Source: Diprion similis (Eukaryota > Arthropoda > Insecta > Hymenoptera > Diprionidae). Taken from it: 64,000 nt of DNA. The notes beneath the pieces were generated by a model. The model was not told the DNA's origin and did no database searches. It saw only the letters and a program-made list of their open reading frames with translations. The position numbers and the translations under genes are program-made. Positions 20,201-47,513 of this stretch are shown piece after piece; the stretch's first letter is position 1; each line of letters begins with the position of its first letter. The stretch covers positions 22,284,501-22,348,500 of the forward strand of contig NC_060112.1 in NCBI RefSeq assembly GCF_021155765.1, read 5' to 3'.

Positions 20201-21039
20201 GACACGTGTCCGTAGCCATTTACCTCACACCGCCGCCGGTGAGGTGCATTAAATGATGCACACCGGGTGGGAGTGCAATACGGGAGGATATTAGTTATTA
20301 TTGGCGCGGCTGATCGAGTCGATTCAGGAATCGCAGATTTTGGGTGCAATCGGGTCACGTGATATGCGGTGTATAGAAACCGGGGAAAAATCATGCTGCG
20401 GCTACGCTAGGCTACAATGACTTTTTTTCGCAGGGGAGTTTCGATATCATTGAAAAGATGAGACGTCCGATAGCAGCGTGCCCTATTATATTCTTAACCA
20501 ATTAATCGATCTCCAAGTTGTAGAGCGCAAGGCTTAAGTCTTCGTCTGCTTCTTTAGCTGCGCTTTGTTCCAGTTTAATAATTTCTTATCACATTATTGG
20601 GATTGTAACTTTGCAATGCGTCATTTGGTGGAAAAAAATCAAATATTAATTATGTTTAATCAATGTATGTGACATGAGTAATTTGAAAGCTCAAGAATTG
20701 TAGATAAAATGGCGCTGACAACCAGGCTCTGACGTCATGTGGACATTGTCCAATAGGATTTGGGCCAGGCGGTTTTTCGACCGACGATGATGATCGGGTT
20801 GGAGAACTCGGAGAGCCTGCATGCGGTAAAACTACTCTCTGGACACCGAGTATCCGACGTTCCAGGCACAAATTAGACCCAAGTATCGTAGGTATTATCC
20901 GAGACGTGCACTTAGGCCATAGCTCTGTTCCAGAAAGAAGTGTAGCAAACAGGTCGGAGCGAGGAAAGCGCGTGACGGGACACGTGACCGAGGGCACACG
21001 GTGCTCGCGTGACAAGCCCCGTGACGTCACGCGCACGTG
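20201..21039. promoter_or_regulatory. Cluster of four CACGTG E-boxes and two CRE palindromes upstream of cwo
   Basis: CACGTG occurs at 20203-20208 (within the perfect palindrome GACACGTGTC), 20356-20361, 20981-20986 and 21034-21039. TGACGTCA occurs at 20730-20737 and 21022-21029, the latter 4 bp before the last E-box. CLOCK/CYCLE and CWO bind CACGTG, and CREB-family factors bind TGACGTCA. The cluster sits in GC-rich DNA 3-4 kb upstream of cwo coding exon 1. Binding is an inference. Confidence 0.45.
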
Positions 21040-21054
21040 TCACACAGCGTGGAG

Positions 21055-21130
21055 AATGCGGCGACGACGGCGACGGCGATGCCTCCCTTCTCCTCCTCCT
21101 CCTCCACCTTCTCCTCCTTCTCCTTCCAGG
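21055..21130. repeat. Purine/pyrimidine-asymmetric low-complexity tract
   Basis: A CGA/CGG-rich run followed by repeats of CTC and CTT. It opens long frames on both strands (poly-Arg/poly-Pro on +, poly-Gly/Glu on -). These frames come from the repeat and should not be read as genes. Confidence 0.7.
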
Positions 21131-21429
21131 ACGCCGAACGGGAGCTCGACGACTAGGCTATGGCCTAAACGGTTCCCAGTAGCGTATCTCTTTACGGGTG
21201 AGGGCGTCGATGGCTCGGAAGGTCGTCGAGACGCCTCCTTCCCGCCTAGAGAAACTCTTGCAATCGACCTAAAATTCACCACGGGGTTTTCCTGCGAAGG
21301 GTTTCTTCCCTCCACCCCCGCGATTTCCCAGGGGACGCGTGGCGTCTCTGGGATATCGATTACTATTGTTATGCAGAACGTTTTCATACCGTAATCGGGT
21401 GTAGGTGTTACTGAAAATAATTTCATTCC

Positions 21430-23603: not shown

Positions 23604-24040
23604 CAAAAATTTTGAAAAAAATTACGGTGCCCAGGTGCGTGCGAATTTGAAGATAAATTTGAATACGCGAAGTTGAGAAAAATTTCATTCTTGCGAACGT
23701 ATTCGGGTATTCTTCGGGGACGGGAGTGAAAAGCTACCTTTTATTATACCTGCGAGGGTTTCATTGATAGTCGATTTGTTTGTGATCCGTGAAGTGAAAT
23801 TGATTCATCGATTGGTACAATCGGTATCTACATACATATAATACTTTTCGAATGGTGGAAAATTTCGGTCGGGAAAGAAAAGCGTTTTCTTTGCTAATTG
23901 CATAGTTACTATATCGTTTTAATTGTCTATCATTCGTTGTAAAAAATAAATAAATAAATAAATATCAACAATTATACAAATAAGTGTGCTGCGTGAGAGT
24001 GCGGTGATAATTTTATTACATTAAATACATTTTGCAGTTG
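21430..24040. other. Proximal upstream region of cwo
   Basis: There is no supported protein gene. The part at 23240-23560 is richer in GC and CpG than its surroundings and is followed by a GA microsatellite at 23571-23596. The cwo transcription start is not fixed; it may lie here or at about 24047. Confidence 0.4.
23571..23596. repeat. (GA)n microsatellite
   Basis: Thirteen uninterrupted GA units, about 570 bp upstream of the cwo ATG. Confidence 0.9.
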
Positions 24041-24151: not shown

Positions 24152-24223
24152 ATGCTTCAAGATGATGGAGACTCAGCATTATTGGGAAGAGAATTCTGCG
24201 CATTCTATGCAAGTCAAATATGA
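24152..24223 (+). other. Short upstream ORF overlapping the cwo start
   Basis: An ATG 10 nt upstream of the cwo ATG opens a 23-codon frame that runs out of frame through coding exon 1 and stops at TGA 24221-24223, four nt before the donor. The uATG context is poor (tctATGc), while the main start has A at -3. Leaky scanning past it is likely if the 5' UTR includes this stretch. Confidence 0.5.
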
Positions 24224-27200
24224 AAAGTGAGTACGATGGTTGGATTTTTGTAAAATCAAACCGCTTCTCGCATTGTATAATTACAAGAGGCGACACGTAG
24301 GTAATAGATTAGACGAATAGGTTTTCACCATCGATACCCGCAATGGAAAGGATTGCAAGTAAAAATGGTGGCAGTGGCTTGCGCATTCTTGTCACGCGAT
24401 GACACACGCTTCGAAGAAAGTTGACTCAAGTGATGAAATCGGTCAAACGTGCCCGAAAGCCGCGTACTTAGGGCCGTTCGATATTCAACGGAGAAATTGA
24501 AACTTTGGAAAAAAAAATTTTAAAAATTGATGTTACTTACATCTCGTTAAGTCTGCATCAATTCTGGCAAGATTCACAAAACAAATTACAACAGGCTTAA
24601 ATAGGTCTATCACAATTGATACGTACTTAGATTTGACTCCAAAAAAGTTCCGCCCATACAGTCATCACAACAGATTTTCTGAAATCTGGATGGAATTTTT
24701 TTCCGTCTACATTCTTGCAACGGAGAACAGATGATATTCCGGTTTTTTCTTGTTGTTCATTTTACTCGAGAGTATAATAAACGTATCTTGTGTTGATCAT
24801 TATTCAGCGCTCGGGATTTCCCCCTGAGCAAATTGAGCGTATAGTGATTGGAATTGCATCGTTTATTTATAGACTTTTATATACGTTTTATACAGCGTAA
24901 CTATGCAAATCCGTCTTCTTCGTCCCCGCTTCACACCGTGATATGCTGTAATTATACATATTTTGTGTGCAATGTATACAGTATATATTATAAATATTTT
25001 TGACCGAATGTTTTTCTCAAAATCGGCAAATTCACTCTGATAGAAGGGTAATCTAATCTAATTAGCAGGCGTTATATCTGCATTATCTGTGTAATAACAC
25101 GTATCGCATACAACCAACGTATCTCTACGGCTGTATAATAGCGTAAATTTTTCACGAGAATGTAAATAATTCGAGTTCTTCGCGATGTCGGATAAAACGA
25201 TTCAAATCTCCCGCGCCCTCGAGGATTAGCTCCTCAAGTTGAATCATTTTAAGATTCCGTGTCCTTCGCTGCATCCGATATTTATTCGAATAATACGAAA
25301 CGGGTAGCCCGTCTAAAAATAAATCTCAACCTCACACCTTTCATGCCTCAACGAAGCGAGATCGATAAAGATCTCCTCGCCGTTTCGCACCGCGATATAA
25401 AATACATTCCGTATCTGCGTGTGCAATACTTGTCGACGAAATAAAGTAACGTGACGGATAAATAAGAGCGAAAACTGATAAATAAACAAATCTACTCGCG
25501 AAAAAAATGTCATTGCAACGCCAAATATTTGCAACATAATGAATCTCGAGGGTAATTGATGCGGAGTAAATTACACGTGTTACGTAATGAAAAACGCCAG
25601 CTCCAATTGAAACTGTATTACAACGCGACACTCGGATCGTTAAACTTTGCTCCCCGTCGGGTCAACGAGCCGTGCAAAGACGGAAAACTTTACGTGTTAA
25701 TAATACGCGTAACCAAATGTACATTACATTATACATGCATATATATACGTACGCCGAGTAATTTATGAAACCGAGCGCGTTTTGGAACTGAAGTAGAAAA
25801 ACGGGCACCTTTTAAAAAAAAACGTTTGCAAATTCTTGATCTCAAAAAATTTACCGATTAAGTATCTATATATATGTAAATATGCATATGTATGTACGTA
25901 TAGGTGGCGACAAGATTGTGGGTTTGCGAATGTTGGCGACAGGCTGAGTACACACCGCGAACGAATGCGATGACGAATCGCTTAATGCTTTGGCGAATTA
26001 TAAAGACATGCAGCTTACCTGTAAGCAAATACAATGGGAGAGAAATTGGCGTATAATGAGGGGGGATTGACTCCTGTTTCCGTTTCCGTTTGCTATGCGG
26101 GCAGGAAATTATTCGCCACCCGAAAGAGATCTTTCTGACGTCATGGAATATCGACTAACGGCTAGTGTAATATAGGATAGCGTGCATGTATATATATTGT
26201 CATACGGTCAACAGCCAGGCTCGAGTCACACTTAAAGTGTCTCACGTATGAGGAATCGCTGGTTACGTGATATAAATGTCATATATGTAGAATATCGTAT
26301 CGCGCGTGAACTTCCTTTTGCGATATACAAACGCAGAAGAAAATTATGGGGAAAATCGATGGATTATTATTTAACGAATTTCTTTGGCCTGCCTTGGGTC
26401 ACGTAGGCGCATTTCTGCGACGACTTACATCTACGTATATGGAACTATTTTTATCACTCTAAAGTCTAAATCGTAAAACTTAACTTCTCAGTCTCTCTTT
26501 CTGTTTCTCCGTAGGTTCAATAATTACTCCAGAACTACAGAACCGATTTTAATTTTTTTTTTATATATTGGTGGCTGTAACTTCTGGGCAGGTTTTAGAC
26601 TATTTTTTGTTTCAACTCGGTTAATACTTTTGAATATATAACCAATAGAGTAAGCCAATTCGGGACCGGATCACACACTTGTGCCAACGCTGGCTAAACT
26701 CTTAGAGGTAGAGAGCAATTGTGGTCGATGAAATCTATAAAAATGTTCTTTGCTCCAAGATTCTTTTAAAAACATTCGCGGCACTCACGGAAAATCCCTG
26801 ATTCACGGAGTGGGCTTATCTCGCTTTGAACAGGCGATGTCCGAAGTGTGTTAGGTATTGTAATAAGCACCGAAGGCATTCCGTGAAGAAGCATAAAATA
26901 GCACCTGAAAATCACATGTTACCGTTATCTGGCCGTTGAGAGCTTGCAGCTGCTGCCACGATGTGCCGGTGAAATTCCTCGGCGACCGATATCGTCATCT
27001 GCGATCATCCGTCAGAGGATAACAATCTTATAACATCGCTTAACTCTTATAGTTTCACAGATGAGAGAAATTTCCTCGTTTACGATCATAATTCTTTCGA
27101 TGTTTCCACCTTTTTGAACCGTCGTTATACAAGTATGTTAAAATTCCTCTGAACTCGAATCGAGCAAGAATTGTTGTTATAGATTTTGCTCATCTTGTCC

Positions 27201-29602: not shown

Positions 29603-32600
29603 GTGCGAAGAGATACACACTCGAGGTGCGTTAAATAGACCATTACATTTTATACGGACGTTACACATTCACTCTACAGGCAAAATGTCAGTCAGCTATT
29701 AAGTGTATTATATATAGCTGTACTTTCACTGTGTTGAATGCTGAAGAAATATCAAGACGATCGAGTATATATTAAATATGTTAAATCGTTTCAAATTCTA
29801 TCTCGAAAGAGTTCTTCGTCAAGAAAGAAATTAATTTTTTTATCCTTTCAAAAAAAAAAAAAGACAATTCTAAAGACTCGGTTTTCTATGTACAGACTTT
29901 GGTCAGTTGGTTTTGAACCGTTGCGAACTAAGGTTCGGCGAAATGTGCAAAAAGTAAACGTTCCTGTAAGGGGTAAAAGAATTCTAGATTAATTATTTTC
30001 CTTTGCAAATTATATTGTACGCAGCTTCCCGTCCAAAATTCAATTATTTCACTAAGATTGTACTGCGAAGGGATTTTAAGTGGTGGATTTTGTAATTTTA
30101 AGACGTATGTAACATATTCAGCATGAATTTTCTTAAAAGGCGTGTGTTTATTCGTCGGCTGGTCGTGAACGCGGTGTAAAAATATTAACCTACATATCGT
30201 CGCAAGTGCGAGCTGAGCGCGTGCCGTGCAACGTGACTCGACGTTGCTGATTCGTCTAAAAAACCCTCGAGTATTTTCCGCACATGTTATTATAACGTGT
30301 TAAATATAATGCGTATTAACACATATTTGTGTGTGTGTGTGTGTGTGCGTGTGTGTGTGAACGCTCGATTTGTCGCCTGCCTGCAGGATCGATTAGGGGC
30401 ACTGCAGGCAATTGTGTAACGTGTTAACAAGACAAAAAGAAAAAAAAAAAAAAAAAAAAAAACCACATGCCACGTTAATCGTGTCACTGCAGGCTTGTGC
30501 GTATAATTGTGATACGACAAGTATTGCAAAAAAGAATATGGGATTCTCGGAAACGCTGGCTTCACGTGTCGAAACGTTTGAAACCGAACACGTAACTGCA
30601 TAAAAATCATTTATTCTACTCGCATGTTACAGGTGTAACATGATCTACTTACAATTTATTCGGCGATAAATATCTTGCGATATTATTTTGCATTATTATT
30701 GTGTGCATCGGATATAGTATATATATATATAATATATATAACGAAATTATTCTGCTTAGTTCGCGTAATTATATATATATGTACCATATAGGTAGAGTTT
30801 TGCACGGAGATTCGCCAAAGCATGGAATTCACGCACGAAATGCGAAAGTCGGATCGTATTTGGAGTCGTATGTTGAACGCACTTCAAGTAACACTTGTGT
30901 AATGCGATTGTAAGTACCTACCTATTCGTGATTGGCTGCCACCAGCCGAGAATTGTTATGTGCTTTTAGCCGAGTCACTGATGTTTGTATATTCGATACC
31001 GTGATGTGTGATTCTGCTCCTCTCTGTTTGCCCCCATGACTTGTATGTATGTACATACAAAGAACAAACATAGGCGTTGTTTTCACTGTATTACGACTGC
31101 AGCCAATCTATATCCTACCTCCAACGGTGCAGGACAAGATTTGCAATTACTTCCTACTTTACTGTGATGGCCTTAGAATTTTTTTTACCCTATAGCAACG
31201 CGTGTGTGTATAACGTCACAGACTTGAAATCGCACGTACGACTTTGGAAGGCAAATAAAGACGTATGTTTTTATCTATGTTAAATAAATTTGTACGGTAA
31301 TTTTCGAACACTTGTGTGTTACATTTTATTTACAAGCGAAAACTGCGAACATATTATAAGACATTCAGAAGTCAAACGACGACGACGACGACGATGACGG
31401 GCTTTTGGAGCTTGAACTACTTTTTAATTTTCCCGCTCTTTAGACGACCGACGACTCGCGAAAGAAGCGAGCCTTCTAGCGGCGAGAATTGAAATCGCGT
31501 TTTACAATTCTTGTATGTTTGAAGTTTGCGATGTTTAGAATATATTTGCGGCGTCAAATTGCGACAGACATGGGTATTAAATATGGGTTATGATTATTTG
31601 AATGTAATCATCGCGTATGACGCACTGGTCACGCGTTACTTTTGACGGTAATAAACGTTGTTATAAATTTGGGAGCTACTATCTGATACCGTTACGCGTA
31701 TGTAACGCGGACTATCTCGAGATTAAAATATATACACGGGGAAATCTCTCGGAGATAATTCCAGCTCCACCGCACTGACAAACTGCTCCGGCCTCGCCAT
31801 AGCGAGATATTTTAGGATTGGGTCGACGCCAGGTCAATGTCATTGGTCAAAATAACGAGGAAACTATAATTTCAAAACAAACGATCGCGCGTTTGGCTAA
31901 AGATGAATTAAAGAAGATTGCTCATCTATCGCTGCTTGAAAGTAGCGCGGATTTCATACCCCAGTTGTTACGAGCCGCTGCAAGGCCTGCAGTTGCAGAG
32001 GTTAAAAAATCCCCCCACCTCGGATCTTGCGACCCTAGTTTCAGCCTCTTCCTGAGTAAAAAATCCCGTTTTTTCAATCGAGTCACCAGCTCGCCGACGG
32101 ATAGACTTATTTGCGATTATCCGTTCTTGGAAAAAGTCCGTCTAAAAGCTGTTTACTAGCGAAAACGTGGGATTCAAAATGGCGCAATGCGAAGCGTGAA
32201 ACCTTAATTCTCCGAAGTGTAATTCGCCACGTGATTTGAGGTCGAGTAAGCCGTTGAGTAGAATTAATATTCTTGCAAAGCGGGAAAACCGCCGCGAACG
32301 AACACTTTGCGTCATGCCGGAGTAGCAAAAATGGAAGAGTCGATAGGAATCGCTAAAGCGCGAGGTGCCTGCACAAGATCGGCGACCAACTCCTCCTCGG
32401 CGGGGGGAAACGCGAGGCGTGGCAGCACGCGTGATCGTGCAAAAGTGAATGGCCGACGTCGCGACGTCGTCGTCGTCGAGTGGGATGTAAGGTCGGCGAA
32501 GGACGCTGCGGAGATATTTCAACGAGCGAGATTCCGATCGGTTTAAACTCGAGTGGGTTATAACGTGAAGTAGCTATATATCCGCTTATCTCGGCGGAGT

Positions 32601-32948
32601 TTTACCTCTCGTAATTATCCGCTGTGCAGGTAAATCGGTGAACGAAGGAGACGAACGATTCTCATCGACGATATGTGGAACAATTATTCAATACCTATAC
32701 CCACGCGTCGTTTCAGCGAAGGAGAAAAGAACCGAACGGCGGGAGAACAGCTTCCATCCATCAGTGCCCTTGGAGCACATGCTACAGGCGTTTCACAACT
32801 CATTTGCAATAAATTAATTCAGATCGGATTTATGACAACCGCTAGTCGTTCGTAGAGCTACGAAATGGAGGGAAAATTAGGGTACCGAATGACCTGGGAA
32901 ACAGTAACGGGACAGTTAATATTATTCCCGGATATAATTATAATATAC

Positions 32949-35900: not shown

Positions 35901-38900
35901 AACGCGCCTCGCGAACTGCAGAATGAACAATATCCATACATAATCTGCAGAGAAAGCGGCAGGCACGTGGATTTCGCGACGAAATTAGCCGCCGCGTATA
36001 GTTATAGGCATGTAAATACCAAACTCACCTCGGAATGGCCGGACCGAGGTGAGGGGGGGAGACAAAGTGCAAAAGGCAATCATAATCGAGGACTCGCGCA
36101 TGGCTCAACTTCGCTCTCGAGTGCTTGCTTATAGCGGAGTCACGTGCCGAGTCGCGAGATTCGCATCTAACAAGGTCGCGGCAAGGTCGTCGCCGTCGGC
36201 GCAAGGACTTGGCTGGCCCGCGTGCGAAAGGAAGCGTGGCGAGGGAAAAAAGACCAAGAACTTGATGAATAAGAAAAAGGAAACACGCCCTGGTCGCGGG
36301 TTTTGCGTCCACCACACTCGCAGATTCTCGATTATAGACTATGAACGATTCGCCGTCGGCGAAAACCGGTTAAGCAGGTACCTGTAAGCTCGACATTTGA
36401 TTTTATCTCAATTTCACTCCCTGTATTATTATTTATACAATTATTTTAACATTGTCGCCAAGTTTAAACTGTAACAAAGAAATTTTATATTATTTATATA
36501 TACATATGGTATATATCGTTCGAATTTTAAATTAAACTCTTTTGTTTACGACCAGCTCTTCGATGACGATGATGATGCGGATGATGATTCGGACAATTTT
36601 ATATACTTACCTATATACCAGTTGTCATCTCCGCGCATGGCAATTGCAATCGTGAACTTCGGTAAATTCGATTCACGTGTCGCATCCCGGAATAAAACTG
36701 GATGATCCCGCAGTTGTGCGGATATTAATAGTTTTCTTTTCAAGTTAATTATATTCTAACGATTTTCTATCACACCGAAACTTTCCTCAAGATCGTATAA
36801 CGATCGACGTACTGCAAACATTTAATTTACTGATTATAGTCAATTTAATCAGGGATCCGTATAACATAAAGTTTGGTAAATAAAAGTAAACATGTATATA
36901 TACGAACATTTGTGTGAAGACACAAGATTTCCGCATTTAATTCTCAAGGAGGTATGACGATGCAGCTGCTTTTCAAACGAGCGGAATTTTTCGTTAGCCT
37001 GATTAGATATAACTAGATTTATTTATACAACGCAACGTGTTGATTTCAGTCTCGATGGAAGATCGTGTAAGGACGAGATTTATAGAATGGGCCTTGGGAA
37101 CGGTTACTGCGAAGGAAACTTGAACTTTGCCACCGCCTCCGAGGACGATGAAGTTTACACAAAGAAAAAGGTCTCCAGAGTAAGTATTACTATATAGGCA
37201 TATGCATGTATATTTCCTGCTATTGCATTTTCCTGCATCTCAACGCGTATTATTGCGATAAGAAATTTACTGCAGTAACCGATTCGTGAGCACTATTCGT
37301 TGACAGGTGTCGAGGATTTAGAAAACAAAAAAAAAAAAAAACAAGATTTTACAGTTATTTTCCTTTCTTTCTTTTATCATCAAGAGATCGTCTCGAAGTC
37401 GCTGCATGATTTAATCGTCTTAATTGCTCACCGACGATGATAAAGGACAGCAAAAAGAAAAAGAAAAAAAAAAAACCACAAGTGCAATTCGGAGTATACA
37501 TTTTGCGACTTCCCTTGAACAATACCAGGAAACATTAAAACCAACAATTCGCCGCTGAGCGTCAATCAATTACCTACGGAATTTGGGTCATGATAGAAAG
37601 CTTTTCCGTGTTGTCGAATCAACGGTGATGCAATATACGCAACAGCCGAGCTGAATCGAAGGCGGTCACGTTTAGATGGAAAAAAATCATCCCGCTAAAG
37701 ATTAATGAGTAAGCAACGTGTAGCATCGCTTCTTGTACGGAACCGCGACCGTTCTTTTAATCTTTTTTTACTTTCAACATTCGCAATAGGTATACGAGAC
37801 GTAGTGCAGCTCTGCAGTTGCTCTGTCGATATATGCTCTCTCAATTTAAATATACCTACAGAGTGAATTCCTAACGACTGCATGCCCGTCGTTTGCTGAA
37901 ATTTAAAGCGCACGCGCCACAGTTGAAGACCGGTTGATTGCCAGGCCCACCAACTGTCTCTAACCTCAAAAATTTTTACAGTTGTAAATTAAACAGTACT
38001 TCCATCGACGATTGTCAAAATTTTTGAGGTTACGTACGCTGCGCCTGAATTTACGATGGTTGGTCACCCTGCAGGTAAACAGTTACTCTCGGATTGTTGC
38101 GCTGCGCATTAAATTTTAGAAGACTGCGGACCGTGCAGTCTTTAAGAATTCACTGTGTAAAAGAGAAAATTGCAGCAGTTGACGGCCAGTGAATTACATC
38201 GATGATGCATTGTCCGATCGGAATGTGGCAATTATTCGAATTCGGTGTAACGAATCGTTTAAGAGAGTTCTACCGCAAAATGAATTGACGGTTAGAAAAT
38301 AATGAAAATTGAAACGTGAGTAGCTTGTATAAACGTGTAAATTTCTGTGATTCAATACATATTTCGTATCACTTAATAATTGACGGTTCCAAATCAATGA
38401 AATTCATTTCTGATAAACATTTTGAAAAAAGTAAGTTTGCCTTCAAGAGAACATGTTAAGCGATGCAAAATATGTATCGAATCACAAAAATTCGTCTCGC
38501 ATGTTCAGCTACACACGTTTCAACGTTCATCTCTTTCTAAACGTCGATTCATTCGTCGCGACAAAACCTCCCTCGGCAATTTCATCCCTGACGAAATATC
38601 GGGGTACATATCGAATCAAGCTGCAATTACTCACGTCACACGTGTAGCAGCTACCCGAAAATTTCGTCACTGGTAATCCCGGCTCTCTATCGCAAGAGTC
38701 GAACCGGATCGCGTGCGACGCGACGCGACGGTACATCGGCACCAAGGCTGTACGTACACACGCACAAAACGCACACACGTGAAAACCGTAGGTCAAACGA
38801 GTTTCGAAACTCACAAGAATTTCAATCCGTACGTGTTGTGTGCACCAAGTCAGCGAGCGGCCGTCGCCACCGCGGTGAATCATTCCCCTGATCGTTGCTT

Positions 38901-41900
38901 CGTTCTTCGAACATGTAATCGACGAACGAAAGTCCGTTTTCGTGTTCACCGACACGTACGCCTCATAAAGGAAGTTCGTCGCTCGGGAAAATGTCCACCA
39001 TCTCTTCCCAGCAATTCGTAAACTCATCTTATGTCTCGTTCCATTTATCATGTTGAAGTTAGTAACGTTAACGTAACGAAACTGAGCATGGAATAAATCG
39101 TTTTCAAATTTTCGAACGACTTCGAAAAGGACTTGGCTTTTCAAATTATCATGTTTTATTTATTATGATCGACCAGATCAGCTTTAGACAATCTTAAGGC
39201 TGTGAAATAAAGACTTTCCTGAACATCCAAGTATAACGTTACCAACTTCAACCTCATTCTCATTCGTCGTTATTCGAGCAGCTGGGTACATAACAGATCA
39301 TACCATCGTTTCTCGCCATTTTTCAAAAACTCTTCGTATTATCAGTCACCTTTTTGCGGCGAGAAAATTTCCAACTATGACTGCAAGTTATCAACTTTAC
39401 TTTTAATGCTGTCTTCGAACTAGTTTTGAGCACTAGTTTTTAATACTTGCATTAAACTTAGTTGACCCACCAACGTTACAGGTCAAGCCATCTTTGGTGT
39501 TCTCTGCAGGCGCTTTATGCACCATTTGTTACACCGTGTAAACGAATAATACAGCCAGAACTAGATCCAACGATGCCCATAATTAGCTGTAGTATCTCTA
39601 AGGTGAACAGAACCGGCACATCATAATTACTTTTAAATAATGAATGAAGTCGAAGGAAGTCGACTTTCAATTTCATTTTCATTCTAATCCTGGTCCTCTG
39701 TCTAGCCGCCCAGTCCTGCAAGAATCTCAATCCTAGTCTCAGACCTGTGACTTATAAATTGCAGAGGATTAAATTAGAGGGGAGCTCAGGCTGACGAGTG
39801 GCTTCTGCACGACGAAAAAGAGAACGGGGAATTCGGTCTTCGAGAAGGGCGTGTATAATTAACACGCGGACACGTAGATCGAGCGTCTAGTCGCAGCTCT
39901 CGCAACATTGTGGGCACCAAGATTCGTACCTCGAAAAGTTACGTCACATATTACAGCCCTGCGTCGTAGAAACGGAGCCCTCGTACCTGATTGGCACATA
40001 CCTGCAAAGGATAGAAATTTTCACCGTAATGGCAATATTTGATCAATCACAAGGTCCGCGTGATCTTCGTCGGCGAATCCGGGGATCCTAGAGTCGAAGG
40101 CCTCGGATGATCTCGAGGGCAAAAGGGGGCCTAATTGGCGTAACCTTCGGCGTTTCGAAAGGTCATTGTGGTTTTGCTAAGAACGAAAGCTAATCGAGGC
40201 CGTGAGGCGGGATTATAAGACAGAATTGTCTTTCCTCCGGATTCAATTATCGCGAAGAAGATTTCGCTTGATTCGTTTTTCTTGTGGACGAAAGTCAAAA
40301 GCTATACGTGCTATATATTGGGTATTATATTGCTTTTGCACGCGGCTTAAGGTCTCGTAGTACTCCTACCCTTACCGACCGAGCAAACTCATCCTTTTTC
40401 TTCTTGTATTAAGAAAACCAAACGAATGAATAGAGTTGCGGCACCGCAGAATTACACTTATCATCTTTATTTGCCATATTACACCCATGGTCAGTGATGG
40501 AATTTAGAAATTCGCGAGACTCAATGACGAGTCGACGTAATTCTTTGTATATCCATGTATTATATCCAAGACGACATTGACTTCGTGTTGGCACCTGGAA
40601 TTTTCTCCTTCATCTCATTTCGCACGAGCTAATAAACTTCCACGGTCACTCCCAATGATCAGCGACGATGGGCTTCTGATCGTACGACGAGAGGATTCTG
40701 TCGCTGTAAAATCAGTCAACCGTATACATAATTATGTGAAAATTGGAGTTGATTAGGTATAGATTGATTTGCTTCTCGATTTCGCTGCGTCTGTGAATCT
40801 CGAATTGCGGTATTTATAACCGCGAAGAATAAGCATCGAGATCCGTCTGGATGTAATTTATACACCTGCTTGGTTCTAATTGAATTGGCAGAATTCTCGA
40901 GACCATCGGTGTATACTCTGCGGCTGTTTTCAATCCGTTCATCTCCACGCAGAGTTAACAAAACGACTGATCGACTTCCCTTCACTTCCCTACAGAATTA
41001 AACAATTCCTCGAGTAATACAATGTAATGCTGAGCACTATAATACATCATAATAACGACTCGGATTAGCGTCTGAATCCAACTTCCGTTATTATCGGTTT
41101 CCCATTGCTCGCCAACGGCAATATCGGTGACGACACCGGAAGGCATCATATTAATGAATAATGAAATCGTATTATTTCATTTCGTTTAAATCGCATACAT
41201 GATTAACGATCATTCGCGTGTGTACAAAAAGGCAAAAGCAACGGTAAATAAATAATGATTACCGATCGAAGAATCTCGCTAATATATATTTTTGACCAAT
41301 TGACAAGACGTTTCTGTCACACCTATGCCAGCTGGATACGTATGTATTAAGCCGTGAATTTTTTTCTTGCTATTTGCCCATAAATTTGACAATACTATAA
41401 TATATTATTATTATTACATACATCGCCTTGGTTTGAATAATCTAATGTTTAACTCAGCTTTGGCAACAATAGAATGAAATTATTCAAATCGGAAAGGTCG
41501 CAGATATTACGGGTATAAAATACCACATTTCCTTCTTAGGTACATACATTAGGTATACAATAATCTGTTGATGATAAGTTCGACCAGCTTTTTAACGATC
41601 ACCGGCGAGCGTGTAAACAGATGACGCGTGTTATAAAACTCTACCGGCTATCTTCCATGCATATATATATATATATATGTATATATATGTGTATATGTAT
41701 ATACGTATGTATAATGCATATATTTCGTCGCTGCATCGCATACGTACATACATATTACATTACAATATGTCGAGATAATACAATTGCGACGGAGATTCGA
41801 TCCTGGGGAATATAATTATTTTCAACATTACTACAAGAAGAAGAAGAAGAAGAAGAAGAGAAGAATGCAGAAAAAAAAAAACACAATCAAAAATACGCTA

Positions 41901-44900
41901 TCGTAGAATGTTGTTGAATTTTTAAACGTGCTAAAAATTCCAATTATGGCACATTCGCATACATTCACGTTATAGAGACATATATTTAATATATATATAT
42001 ATATATATACATGCATACAGATAGATATAGATGTAAGAAAGAGACCGACTCGAGGTAAACATGAGGAATCAACGACTCGGCACGTGATTATTCGACTCGA
42101 CCGCGTTCCGCCTCGCACGGCTGGATGGAGCACAGGAAGATCTTGCTTCGTTCAGAGTCTCGTTTCGAAGATAAGAGACAGCCGAGATCCAGCTATATCT
42201 GGATTTATCGTTATAAAACGCGGAGGCATTCGACCGGCCGGGCAACGCGGTCAGATCGCTCGAGATTTCCTACAGCGGAGGCGAGATGATGACGTTTGTA
42301 GAGCAAACACGGCGACACTCGAGGTGTCTGCAGGAGAAGAAGAAGCGAACGTGAACCGGTCGAATCTGGATACTTGATAACACTGTTCGCGATTTTTTTA
42401 TTACTTTTTATTCAAGCGCCTTTCACCCCCCGCCACTTAATCATATCACTTCATACTTTAATTACAGTGTTCATCATCGTCGTTGTAATTTTCAGTACAA
42501 CAGATTGCAGGCGAAATATAAATTATAATCACGTGCGTGGGTATGTGATGAAAAATGAAAGAAAAAAAAAACAACCAAAATTTTATCATATAACATGTAT
42601 ATCGAGGGATATTTTGTGTAATAAGGTATACAAAACGTTCGATTATTATATATATGTATATCACAAGTCGCGACTTCGAGATATTTATAATTTTACGAGT
42701 GGAAAAGAATTTTATGATCTATATACACGATATTTTGTACAATAATGTATGTTGATACTATATTAATTCAACATTTCGCCCTTGATTTAATTGCGATTCT
42801 TCATAATCATATTACTAAATACGCGTTGCGTAATAAGTGTATTGCTGACGAGAATTTATACGCTCGAGGCGGTCTGTACGTGTAAATATGTATTAAAAGA
42901 GAATAAAAGATACGAAACAAACATTTCCACGAATCACTTGTTACGAAGCACGCGTTACTTTATTATCTCAAATATAATTAAAAGTTTTGGGGTATAATTA
43001 TTACGAGTGTAATATAGCATATATTTATCAATTCGGAATTCAATCCGAGAATATAAATCGGTGGTAATGAAAATCTGTAATTATACGAATAATAATGAAG
43101 CGAACAATGATGGAATTATATATAGAAATTGCAAGCTGAAAATGGGAATAGAAATGAGAACGTGATCGCGGGCACTGTGCGTGCCGACTAAATACATTGT
43201 TATCATTTTATACTTCCATGGAAGTTGAATTCTATAGGCTGGTACGCGTGATGGTAAACTTTCCGCAAGCACGCGGTAAGGGTTGCCGAAAGCTGACGAC
43301 CCCTTTCAAACTCTACCAAGCCTGCAGCCGGACTTATAAATATATACATTAGGGTGGTCGTCGAATGATTTTTTTACGGAATTTCGGTGTTGGATCTTCG
43401 TAGATCGGCTTTAAACATAAAAACAACATTCCTCTAATTTTTTCAGATTTTTATTTCCAGCCCTTAGTCTTTATGCTGGCCTTTTTTCTGTACTTAATTC
43501 TAGAGCACAAGAATGAAATTCAATCAAGATTTAAAAAAAAAAGTATAAATCCCGACCTTATATAGGTTGAAAAATGATTGAAAAATGATAAACTAAAGTC
43601 AAACACTCACGACTCGTATGGAATATACGATCTTTATGGAGACTAAGGGCTGAGAATAAAAATGTGAAAAAATTAGAAAGCAATTTTTTCCACACTCTGA
43701 ACCGATCTATGATTATCCAAGATGATCTTCGATTTAACGATCACCATTATACCTATTTTCCGGCTCTATTTTCTCACGCGTGCGAAATTTGCCGAAATTC
43801 CGTTTAGTGCCGATGGGCCAATTATACTTATTACAGTCGTTCTAATTTTAGACTCTGCATGCGCTTCGAGGGAACTTTCCACGGGAAACCGTTACAGGCG
43901 ATCGAATCGTTTATACACGTGCATATGCACCTGCACATATATACGCAGATCTACATTATACGCATGTGCAATGCGTTTTCACCTGCAAGGTGACGTCGAC
44001 GCTTACGTGGCTGTGTTTCTCAACGTGTTTCCTGCGTTTTGAGGTGAGAATTAGCATCGACTAAGTTCGTCGCAGTTTGTTTTTTAACGCGGTGCAAAAT
44101 ACTTGCTGAGGAACGAAGAGCGGGCTTTTGGCTTTTCTTAAACTCAGAGATTGAATGCGATTCCCAAGCTCACACTGTTGCAGTACGACTAATTGTCGAC
44201 TGTAATTATACCGAGGAAAAAATGAACGAATTAATATCTCGTGACAGGAAAATCTGTTTCTTAATCGAATTGTAAACTGTAGAAAGTTGAATTGTACATA
44301 TAAAATTGTTCCCCGTTATATCGCTGTTATCTGCTCTTTGACCTCCTGCACCTGAGAAAAAAATATCCCTCAAATTCTGATCTCTGTATAATTATAAATA
44401 CGCATTCCTCGGTCCGGAGGAATTCTGCCACAACTGGACCGATCGTGAGACATTAATCCACGTGGTGGATTACGATTCGACCAAAAGTAGAACATCTATC
44501 TGCATCATTCAACGAGTCTCCCGAATTGTAAATCTATATAAAGTTCGTCACGTTCCACTCTAAACTTTTCTTGCGTGACAATGTCCTGTATTCAGGGTGT
44601 ATAAGGACACTTCGTTGAAAATTTGTATTTGTCATAAAGTGAGATGTTAATATTAACCACGAACAGGGCTGATTATATCGAGGATAATGGAAGAGGGGCG
44701 TTTATATTTAACATAAAGATGGGTATTCTCGGTTCGCGTGATCGCGTCGAGATAGAACTCACGTGTCGAACGGCGAGCGCCACGTGACGGGGGTCGGAAA
44801 TTTTGCGTTGTTATTGAAACGGAGGCGGCGCAAGCTCAGCAAGCTCCGCAAGCTCGTCGAACGAGACTACTTGACGGCGACTGACGCTCCGCGGGTCATT

Positions 44901-47513
44901 CAAGTTTTAGCAGCATCTCGAGCCGGTTCTTACTGCTCGTCTGGCTCTAATCCTCGTTCTCGACATTCCGTTCTAGTAACGAACAATTTTCCAAGTGTGT
45001 CGCGAATTTAATATTTCTCATTACCCTTAACAATAAGTTATATTATAAATAATAAAGTAAAAACGGTGTGTAAAATATCGACAATTTATATTCAGATTCA
45101 TAATATATTGCAACTGATCGTAGATAAAGCTAACAATAAGGTTTATATTAAAGTTCGTCGAGTTGTGTACAATGTTGACAAAAAGTAATTCAGTCAACTG
45201 CAGGGACATAAGTGATAATTATTACGTCGTCGATGATTACAGTGTTGACAATATTTCGAACGTGCAGTTCTACGCGTCTCCGACATCGAGTGACGGACTA
45301 TCTCAATCACCGCCAAGGAAAAGACGGTGCATAAACAAAGAGGTGATTTGATGGGGAAAAAAAAGAAAGAAACTAACGACGAAAACGATGGAAAAATCGT
45401 GCCAACATGTATCGCGTTGTAAATATGGATATGTATCTATATACATGTGTGCGAACTCGTTAAGCTCGTATATAACACGTTTCACGTGCTTGGCGCAAAC
45501 CGAGTAAACTCATTATACATGTAACTGGCGTAAAAGTATATCCTATATGACCTAAATTTAGGTAAAGGATGCTCAATATAATTCTCGAACAGTGCTCACG
45601 AGACTGACAGTAAATCTTATTACATCGCATTTCATTTTATTCATTTATTTATTTCCGTTTCTTTAATTTCAATCGAAACTTAAACTTTCCACGAATCAAG
45701 TTCCAGTTTTCTTTTTTCGGATCTGTATCTTATTATTACGCACGCGATTACATATTCTTTACATCGTTTTTACAATTTTTACTTTTTTCACATTCCGATG
45801 GAACAAGCATGAAAGTATATAATTGGTGGAGATTGATCGAGTTATTGTCTTTGTTATTATTATCATTATTATTATTATTATTGCTATTTTTATTATTTTT
45901 ACTTTAATTTTCATTTTCTTGGATGAAGAGAAGAGACGAAAACACGATGTTTTATTTATTTTCTTCCGTTCTTTAGCAAGATCCAATGTCTCACAGGATC
46001 ATCGAGAAGCGTAGAAGGGATCGTATGAACAATTGTTTAGCCGATCTCAGTCGTCTCATACCTGCAGAGTACCTTAAAAAGGGACGAGGCAGAGTTGAGA
46101 AAACTGAAATCATCGAGATGGCCATCAGACACATGAAATATCTGCAGGGCGTAAGACAAGGTAATTATACGTCTTTTATACTTCTATGACTCGACTTCTA
46201 GAGACTCTAGTGTATACACTGTGATATATACGTAAATTGGTGAATAATTTTATCGTACATAAAAACGGGATCAAAATCTCAGCTATCTCTGGTGAAAATG
46301 ATTTCTAGTATCTTCTACGAATTTTTCGATAAATTGAAATACTTTTAATATCTAACGTAATATGCAATAGTGTTTATCGTAAAAACTTGTAGTAGATTTT
46401 AATGAAAATTTGTAATTTTTCAATAAGAAATTTGCAAGCTAGTACTATTTTCAATGTAAATTAACGTATTTCTTTACATAAAAAACTATTCACATATACA
46501 ATTTTGTACGAAAGAATGCAAAATTTTTCAATTTCTATCAAAATTTGTAGTAGTGGGAAATTTTCACCAGGGATAGCGCGCGTGGCTCATTGTCAATACT
46601 TGAGAAGATGACGAAATTCTTATATCCTTTCCAGACGTCAGACATCCGGCTGTAGCCACGGTCCATTCGCACACCGACGACAGCGTCGACAGCGTTTCGC
46701 ACTCGGCGTCGACTTCCTCGGCAGCGGACCACTACAGACTGGGCTTCCAGGAGTGTCTGAGCGAAACGATGCACTTCCTGGTGGACGTCGAGGGTTTCTT
46801 CGCGAGAGATTCCCTCTGCGTTCAGCTGATAAGCCACCTGCAACAGCATTGCGACAAAATGTTGGCAGCAAGTGAGTGTCCACGAATCGAGTTTCGTTTT
46901 ATAACAATGATATAAATATAATAAATTTATATAAACCCGAACGTTTATCCTGCGCCCCTTAGGTGACAGACTGGGCCTTCCGCACCCGGAAATGCCGGCC
47001 TCAAACGGCACCGGAAACGGTGTTTTCCTTCACACGAGCATCCCGGCAAGCTGTCCTCCCAACAGCCACTCGGATCAGGGTTCAAGTTCGGGGGTGAGTT
47101 CCCTCGGGGATCCGGAGCGTCCGTTGCGGCCGATAATTCCGGGCCCGACGATCGTCAGCGACGACAGTAACCACAGCACCCATTCTCACAGCAACGCGTT
47201 ACCGGCGGTATCGAGGCCGACGAATTACAAGTTCAAGAGTTCGATAAAGCAGCGATTCTCCGCGGAGAGGGTCAAGTCCCACACCCCACCTACCCCGGAG
47301 AAGCCCCACGGGGTGCCGATTTTCGCCCTCCACGAAGCCGGGGCTTTTTATATTCCCCTGACGGTCGAGGCCGAGCTCCTCAGGCCCCACCTGACATTTA
47401 CTCCGGACACCGGGCCCGAAATGGTTCTGCATCCGGTGACGATATCGGTAAACTTCAACCACTCAGCTCCTCCGGCGTGGTCGCATCACAGTCCGACGCA
47501 TCAGCAAACTTGA
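24162..47513 (+). CDS. cwo: Clockwork orange, bHLH-Orange circadian repressor (long isoform)
   Basis: CWO is a nuclear repressor that competes with CLOCK/CYCLE at E-boxes and shapes circadian amplitude. The proposed exons are 24162-24226, 37050-37179, 45977-46160, 46635-46871 and 46963-47513. All borders are GT/AG and all phases agree, giving 388 aa. Residues 1-65 come from the first two exons and carry an acidic-then-basic stretch ([15 protein letters not shown]) before QDPMSHR. The bHLH covers about 69-124 ([14 protein letters not shown], then [19 protein letters not shown]). H71, E75 and R79 are the class-B residues for CACGTG. The Orange domain is at about 159-203 ([20 protein letters not shown]). 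The C-terminal cwo blocks are [12 protein letters not shown] and [17 protein letters not shown]. There is no WRPW at the C-terminus, as known for cwo. Introns of 12.8 and 8.8 kb separate the N-terminal exons. The family is certain. Exon 1 is the least certain, resting on the phase match and its VKYE ending. Confidence 0.88.
25574..25587. promoter_or_regulatory. Composite E-box plus PAR-bZIP (D-box) site
   Basis: CACGTG at 25574-25579 is followed without a gap by TTACGTAA at 25580-25587. With its flanks, the second site (GTTACGTAAT, starting inside the E-box) fits the RTTAYGTAAY consensus of VRILLE/PDP1-type factors in full. It lies 1.35 kb into cwo intron 1. The sequence match is direct; function is inferred. 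Confidence 0.5.
28080..28102. repeat. Poly(A) tract
   Basis: A run of 23 A residues in cwo intron 1. No retroelement body is recognisable on its 5' side. Confidence 0.85.
28776..28799. repeat. (GA)n microsatellite
   Basis: About twelve GA units in cwo intron 1. A second, shorter GA run lies at about 29240-29254. Confidence 0.85.
29557..29594. repeat. (AT)n microsatellite
   Basis: About nineteen AT units in cwo intron 1. Similar runs lie at 32951-32980, 48595-48616 and 54768-54792. Confidence 0.85.
30328..30359. repeat. (GT)n microsatellite
   Basis: About sixteen GT units with one GC interruption, in cwo intron 1. A long A run follows at about 30440-30462. Confidence 0.85.
37050..37179 (+). 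other. cwo: cwo coding exon 2A (130 nt)
   Basis: A short exon easily missed by ORF searches. The tgatttcag acceptor ends at 37049 and the gtaagt donor starts at 37180. The entry phase matches exon 1 (aa/t makes Asn22) and the exit phase 0 matches the bHLH exon. It encodes 44 residues, ending with [15 protein letters not shown]. That gives KVSRQDPMSHR at the junction, a typical acidic/basic lead-in to the cwo bHLH. It is open only in this frame. Confidence 0.8.
37942..38071. repeat. Small fold-back element, possible MITE (about 130 bp)
   Basis: The ends are inverted and imperfect: CAGGCCCACCAAC at the left, and the complement of CAGGGTGACCAAC at the right. Inside, AACCTCAAAAATTTTT is mirrored by AAAATTTTTGAGGTT. 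No convincing target-site duplication was found, so the family is open. Confidence 0.5.
38250..38580. repeat. Imperfect fold-back repeat, arms about 125 bp
   Basis: The left arm (about 38250-38381, read on -) and right arm (about 38453-38580, read on +) align along most of their length. Translations show it: [13 protein letters not shown] with [15 protein letters not shown], against [13 protein letters not shown] with [15 protein letters not shown]. The long - strand ORF at 38527-39144 runs through the right arm, which makes that ORF suspect. Confidence 0.65.
41836..41861. repeat. (AAG)n microsatellite
   Basis: About eight AAG/GAA units in cwo intron 2, followed by an A run. Confidence 0.85.
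43350..43749. mobile_element. Fold-back MITE-like element, about 400 bp
   Basis: The two outer parts of about 130 bp are diverged reverse complements. The clearest block is TAATTTTTTCAGATTTTTAT with CCAGCCCTTAGTCTTTA at 43436-43475, mirrored at about 43638-43680 (actaagggct, gaataaaaat, gaaaaaatta). The ends are TAGGGTGG-like at the left and the complement of TAATGGTG at the right, which could include TA target duplications. There is no coding capacity. The superfamily is not settled. Confidence 0.6.
44760..44930 (+). promoter_or_regulatory. Candidate intronic cwo promoter: two E-boxes, Inr and DPE
   Basis: CACGTG lies at 44760-44765 and 44781-44786, 21 bp apart, about two helical turns. TCATTC at 44896-44901 fits the insect Inr TCAKTY with A+1 at 44898. 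GGTTCT at 44925-44930 occupies exactly +28 to +33 and fits the DPE consensus RGWYVT. A third E-box lies at 44459-44464. No ATG occurs between 44898 and the ATG at 45172, so the transcript would start translation in exon 2B. A 9-bp CAAGCTC-type triplet repeat sits at 44831-44857. Confidence 0.55.
45172..45342 (+). CDS. cwo: cwo alternative first coding exon (2B)
   Basis: The ATG at 45172 opens 57 codons that end at a gag/gtgatt donor in phase 0, matching the bHLH exon that starts at 45977 (NKE then QDPMSHR). The peptide is acidic/Tyr-rich ([18 protein letters not shown]), then Ser-rich, and ends in a basic cluster ([11 protein letters not shown]). With exons 3-5 it gives a 380-residue protein with the same bHLH-Orange and C-terminus. 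It has no match to exon 2A beyond the acidic-then-basic pattern. A cag acceptor inside it (exon from 45204) also fits the phase of exon 1, so a mutually exclusive internal exon is the alternative reading. Confidence 0.6.

Follow-up and report, generated by a model that had tools for sequence, protein, structure and literature searches.

Clockwork orange (CWO) competes with CLK/CYC at E-boxes, tuning the amplitude of the clock. A clock transcription factor of another family, the bZIP protein Pdp1, offers an experimentally established N-terminal isoform, Pdp1-epsilon, which we take to be made from its own internal E-box promoter that gives it a different N-terminus. The available part of PMC6890465 singles out Pdp1-epsilon as the only Pdp1 isoform with a role in circadian regulation. 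The same text cites from FlyBase three Drosophila cwo mRNAs (RA, RB, and RC), none of which is presented in that part with a first exon from an internal promoter, and describes RB as a frame-shifting skip of exon 2. In the excerpt of PMC11009632, the Drosophila timeless gene has CLK/CYC-bound E-boxes within an intron, like the putative sites in the cwo region treated here, but these act as an enhancer and a new first exon is not mentioned. In the clock modulator taiman of Pyrrhocoris apterus, the alternative first exons of three promoters are joined to a common exon, as reported in the portion of PMC10511111 at hand; taiman is a different gene and its exons were shown by full-length reads, whereas the cwo exon is predicted from sequence. 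Alternative promoters are ordinary in insects, with 646 of 12,453 expressed honey bee genes having start sites that differ between nurses and foragers according to the consulted text of PMC4466890, in which a cwo start site is absent. A Colletes gigas "transcription factor cwo isoform X2" is named in the accessible part of PMC10231066, where the difference is unstated, and more than one cwo model is therefore annotated in that species. In the openly accessible literature listings searched and the excerpts consulted, we found no description of an alternative cwo promoter or first exon.

The window analysed here is a 64-kb stretch of the 269-Mb Diprion similis genome (NC_060112.1:22,284,501-22,348,500), and all positions below are counted from its first base. 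In it, cwo probably possesses an alternative intronic promoter that feeds a separate first coding exon, a reading to which we assign a probability of roughly 0.55. The long isoform, modelled by sequence, has five coding exons and 387 codons:

24165-24226, + strand: long-isoform coding exon 1 (20 codons plus 2 bases; upstream ATG-frame scan)
37050-37179, + strand: long-isoform coding exon 2 (130 bp; gene model)
45977-46160, + strand: common bHLH exon (gene model)
46635-46871, + strand: common exon with the Orange domain (gene model, Pfam)
46963-47513, + strand: common last coding exon with the VPIFAL C-tail (gene model)

In the joined 387-aa product, Pfam finds HLH (5.2e-14) and then Hairy_orange (1e-11), the bHLH-then-Orange order expected of clockwork orange. 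The last exon also holds the C-tail characteristic of insect CWO (VPIFAL), as described in the available text of PMC3496728. The exon borders agree in phase with the fly borders that can be read from the isoform primers in the portion of PMC6890465 seen, and exon 2 being 130 bp long, its skipping would shift the frame. Coding exon 1 was located by scanning upstream ATG frames for fly N-terminal motifs and a phase-2 donor. Its frame has possible starts at ATG 24162 and ATG 24165, and the exon (24162-24226) sits 12.8 kb upstream of exon 2. The long isoform thereby has 64 residues ahead of QDPMSH, which align to the fly CWO N-terminus with a score of 63 (5000 shuffles, 23.3 ± 4.4, none reaching 63), and it carries the conserved CWO N-terminal exons. 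The original prediction began this isoform within 37050-37179, a version that lacks its start because the conserved first coding exon is 24165-24226. An acceptor-like ATTTTGCAG near 24038, judged by eye, suggests a non-coding exon further upstream of 24162-24226.

The second product would arise from the intron that precedes the bHLH exon, where the following features lie:

44681-44961, no strand: putative promoter region, a CpG peak reaching 28 CG per 200 bp
44760-44765, + strand: E-box CACGTG at -138 (sequence match)
44781-44786, + strand: E-box CACGTG at -117 (sequence match)
44896-44901, + strand: Inr-like TCATTC, putative A+1 at 44898 (consensus match)
44925-44929, + strand: DPE-like GGTTC at +28 to +32, fitting the consensus RGWYV
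44898-45171, + strand: putative 5' leader without ATG (sequence inspection)
45172-45342, + strand: putative alternative first coding exon of 57 codons with donor GAG/GTGATT, phase 0

We propose that this intron holds a TATA-less promoter composed of the CpG peak, the E-box pair, and the Inr/DPE at 44898, and that a transcript starting near 44898 would be spliced from 45342 to 45977. Its translation would yield a protein of some 380 residues that retains the bHLH, the Orange domain, and the C-tail of CWO, and in which the 64-residue conserved head (24165-24226 plus 37050-37179) would be swapped for 57 unrelated residues. CLK/CYC would activate the internal promoter through the E-boxes, via which CWO itself may repress it. 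The junction it would join matches the fly exon 2/3 border, as read from the primers in the excerpted PMC6890465, and the N-terminal variation of the fly mRNAs likewise lies ahead of the bHLH exon, at the same junction before CAAGATCC. However, fly RB and RC, in that excerpt, result from skipping of exon 2 or from use of a different 3' splice site, and both are predicted to be left without the basic region, whereas the D. similis variant would come from a new promoter and first exon and would keep the whole bHLH.

The sequence elements of this model were claimed in advance, and each is borne out by the letters themselves. ATG 45172 is indeed the first ATG after 44898, with none within 44898-45171 and the nearest one upstream at 44719, 453 bp distant. 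The donor at 45342 is in phase 0 and fits the bHLH exon at 45977, into which the frame reads on as QDPMSHRII, so that, by sequence, the predicted first exon has a plausible donor and keeps the reading frame of the common exon. On the donor matrix used, it scores 3.80, compared with 4.37, 2.72, 4.45, and 4.87 for the other four of the gene, and at least 3.80 is reached by 1.08% of 13,738 random GTs. The isoforms had been said to differ only in the 57 residues before the DNA-binding domain; the predicted alternative product has these 57, and their counterpart is a 64-residue head that the original version gave incompletely. The CACGTG pair stands where it was placed (44760 and 44781, a 21-bp step that puts the boxes at -138 and -117 relative to 44898), and the Inr at 44898 with a DPE from +28 is likewise present as sequence matches.

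How much weight these elements bear depends on their surroundings. Canonical E-boxes lie near the putative start, in a window that is dense in CACGTG throughout (40 copies, where 100 shuffles average 9.68; 6.25 per 10 kb versus 2.25 per 10 kb in 20 background loci), and two of 11 other palindromic hexamers, CTCGAG and ACGCGT, likewise rise 2.3-2.4-fold there. The Inr/DPE match is weak evidence on its own, because 13 matches at this spacing occur on the two strands of the window (shuffle mean 3.54); the 20 background loci have 0.2 per 10 kb per strand. There are six CpG peaks of this strength in the 64-kb window and nine across the 200 kb of background loci. Two CACGTG boxes within 60 bp of each other occur twice in the window (44760/44781 and 20981/21034) and once in the 20 loci. 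We rejected the idea that the 21-bp spacing is special: of 823 genome-wide pairs with gaps of 4-30 bp (197 in the reversed control), 23 have a gap of 15 (control, 8), fewer than the roughly 30 pairs of an average spacing. The 20981/21034 pair falls within a CpG peak at 20881-21161, some 3 kb ahead of coding exon 1, where it could belong to the long-isoform promoter; regulation through E-boxes is thus not necessarily exclusive to the internal promoter. This peak and another at 38541-38961, each with two CACGTG boxes, are candidate promoters or circadian enhancers. An ATG-less open frame of 89 codons (44742-45011) crosses the putative promoter region and includes a 9-bp unit repeated 2.9 times (44830-44855); as a known domain it was rejected, having no Pfam match at E 0.01.

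The same surroundings would suit an intronic enhancer, on whose E-box pair CLK/CYC and CWO would act to regulate the upstream promoter, with the frame and donor present by chance. The 40 CACGTG copies and the several CpG peaks of the locus that hold or adjoin E-boxes agree with this, as does the intronic E-box enhancer of fly timeless in the part of PMC11009632 seen. What speaks against it is that an ATG-free leader, a 57-codon frame, and a phase-0 donor seldom come together in background sequence. This combination was sought in 249,400 stranded bases, consisting of three window stretches and nine of 20 fetched loci on both strands; the other 11 loci, some of which have long coding ORFs, were excluded from the codon, pseudo-start, and scored-donor tests and added in a repeat with plain consensus donor strings. 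For features that were chosen after looking at the sequence, the search for at least 57 codons, a phase-0 donor of at least 3.8, and 270 ATG-free bases upstream returned 0 matches in 249,400 stranded bases, likewise 0 with 150 bp ATG-free, and 1 with upstream ATGs ignored. Consensus donors with the 270-bp rule gave 0, 2, and 1 matches in the same background and 0, 2, and 1 in 455,600 stranded bases (the 20 loci plus window 9.3-44.6 kb). The corresponding expectations per 8.8-kb intron are 0, 0.07, and 0.04 in the 249,400-base background and 0, 0.04, and 0.02 in the 20 loci plus window introns, and they range from 0.04 to 3.3 without the ATG-free rule. For 57 codons with AG/GTRA and no ATG rule, there is one match in 12 non-coding pieces and there are 30 in the 20-locus set, which includes coding exons. 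The rarity thus rests largely on the ATG-free leader, because dropping that rule yields many more matches. The pseudo-start test gave five successes in 21,340 overlapping trials. An ATG gap as long as 453 bp is found in 0.35% of 3665 background gaps, and one of at least 274 in 2.6%; upon shuffling, 44722-45171 is free of ATG in 0.2% of 1000 cases and 44898-45171 in 1.8%.

Within its own intron, 45172-45342 is the sole such frame on the sense strand, even at settings of at least 40 codons and a donor of at least 2.7. In intron 1, the looser setting (40 codons, donor 2.7) brings up one 52-codon frame with a phase-0 donor (32331-32486), within a CpG peak (32281-32661) and near a CACGTG at 32228. 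This frame may have arisen by chance in a GC-rich island, which would count against the proposed exon, or it may be a second candidate first exon; the GC-rich E-box islands of cwo can therefore yield such frames by chance, and this shorter frame in a similar island favors the enhancer account. So does the indecisive codon usage: the alternative exon scores 0.014. At least this score is reached by 45 of 225 chance ORFs, and scores as low are seen in only 9.1% of 110 coding windows, in a model that was built without locus L014 although the windows include it, whose coding training ORFs were picked by eye, and whose non-coding set contains the 62-bp exon 1. The score falls between the two distributions and does not set the exon apart from chance frames. 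Overall, we consider the enhancer account the main rival, possible but on the unlikely side.

The region is single-copy: no second copy was found, and a repeat or transposon origin was rejected on this ground. Descent by duplication of the long N-terminus was rejected as well, as the local score of 22 is no higher than the mean of the shuffles; against the long head and fly CWO, respectively, 47% and 52% of the shuffles score as high as the 57-residue head. By this alignment and these shuffles, the alternative exon does not match the conserved CWO N-terminus. A search of viral contigs for relatives gave two stretches that matched the pattern, neither of them confirmed, and three peptide strings (8-12 letters) do not occur in the printed papers searched.

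Taken together, the sequence is best read as holding an alternative promoter that leads into a first coding exon of its own, because the ATG-free leader, frame, and donor are uncommon in combination, a CpG peak is present just upstream, the donor is within the range of the gene, and the region is single-copy. The original prediction to this effect stands in its elements, frame, and donor and gains from the rarity, the CpG peak, and the single copy; it is weakened by the codon usage and by the incomplete long isoform. Its two isoforms might also be separately timed, as it proposes, but CACGTG is frequent throughout the window, and the pair in the 20881-21161 peak could act on the long promoter.

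A real exon could also begin elsewhere. It might be an internal one, reached from farther upstream through, for example, the acceptor-like site at 45096, where TTATATTCAG precedes with a pyrimidine fraction of 0.59, compared with 0.53 at the exon 2 acceptor. In the long-isoform frame, an exon from 45096 stops at 45186-45188; as part of the long mRNA it would act as a poison exon that ends translation early, and after an upstream leader it would allow a start at ATG 45172. Judged by pyrimidine fraction only, however, three of four cwo acceptors are far richer (0.76-0.88), and five other candidate sites upstream of the ATG reach 0.35-0.59. The CpG peak and the Inr/DPE moreover fit a start at 44898 with no extra intron needed, and we regard an internal exon as very unlikely. 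Most improbable in our estimation is that the segment belongs to a separate non-coding RNA or is functionless. The segment may be under low constraint, but the frame, phase, and donor suit the cwo bHLH exon, and Rfam, with no family at gathering score across 37000-46500, favors no known RNA.

If the alternative promoter and first exon are real, primers in the shared exons would mix two cwo products. The conserved head contains an acidic SEDD that the fly sequence shares, and the alternative head has S-P-P-R beside a basic patch, RKRR; we take the former to be a CK2-type site and the latter a proline-directed site. Conceivably, D. similis would then have two full-length DNA-binding CWO repressors differing in kinase input, with promoter choice setting both timing and phospho-regulation, an extension that we hold to be quite doubtful. 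A second E-box promoter whose product is a full DNA-binding repressor with another N-terminus would also give an explanation, open to testing, of why cwo timing differs among lineages, the mRNA peaking near midday (CT6-7) in fire ant and honey bee and near CT12 in the fly according to the part of PMC3496728 consulted.

The contig also carries a fragment of period (L036, G000:C8:22700440-22700619, minus strand) some 370 kb away from cwo, with 53% identity to a piece of fly PER (E 3.7e-15); the 6-kb stretch at this fragment contains one CACGTG.
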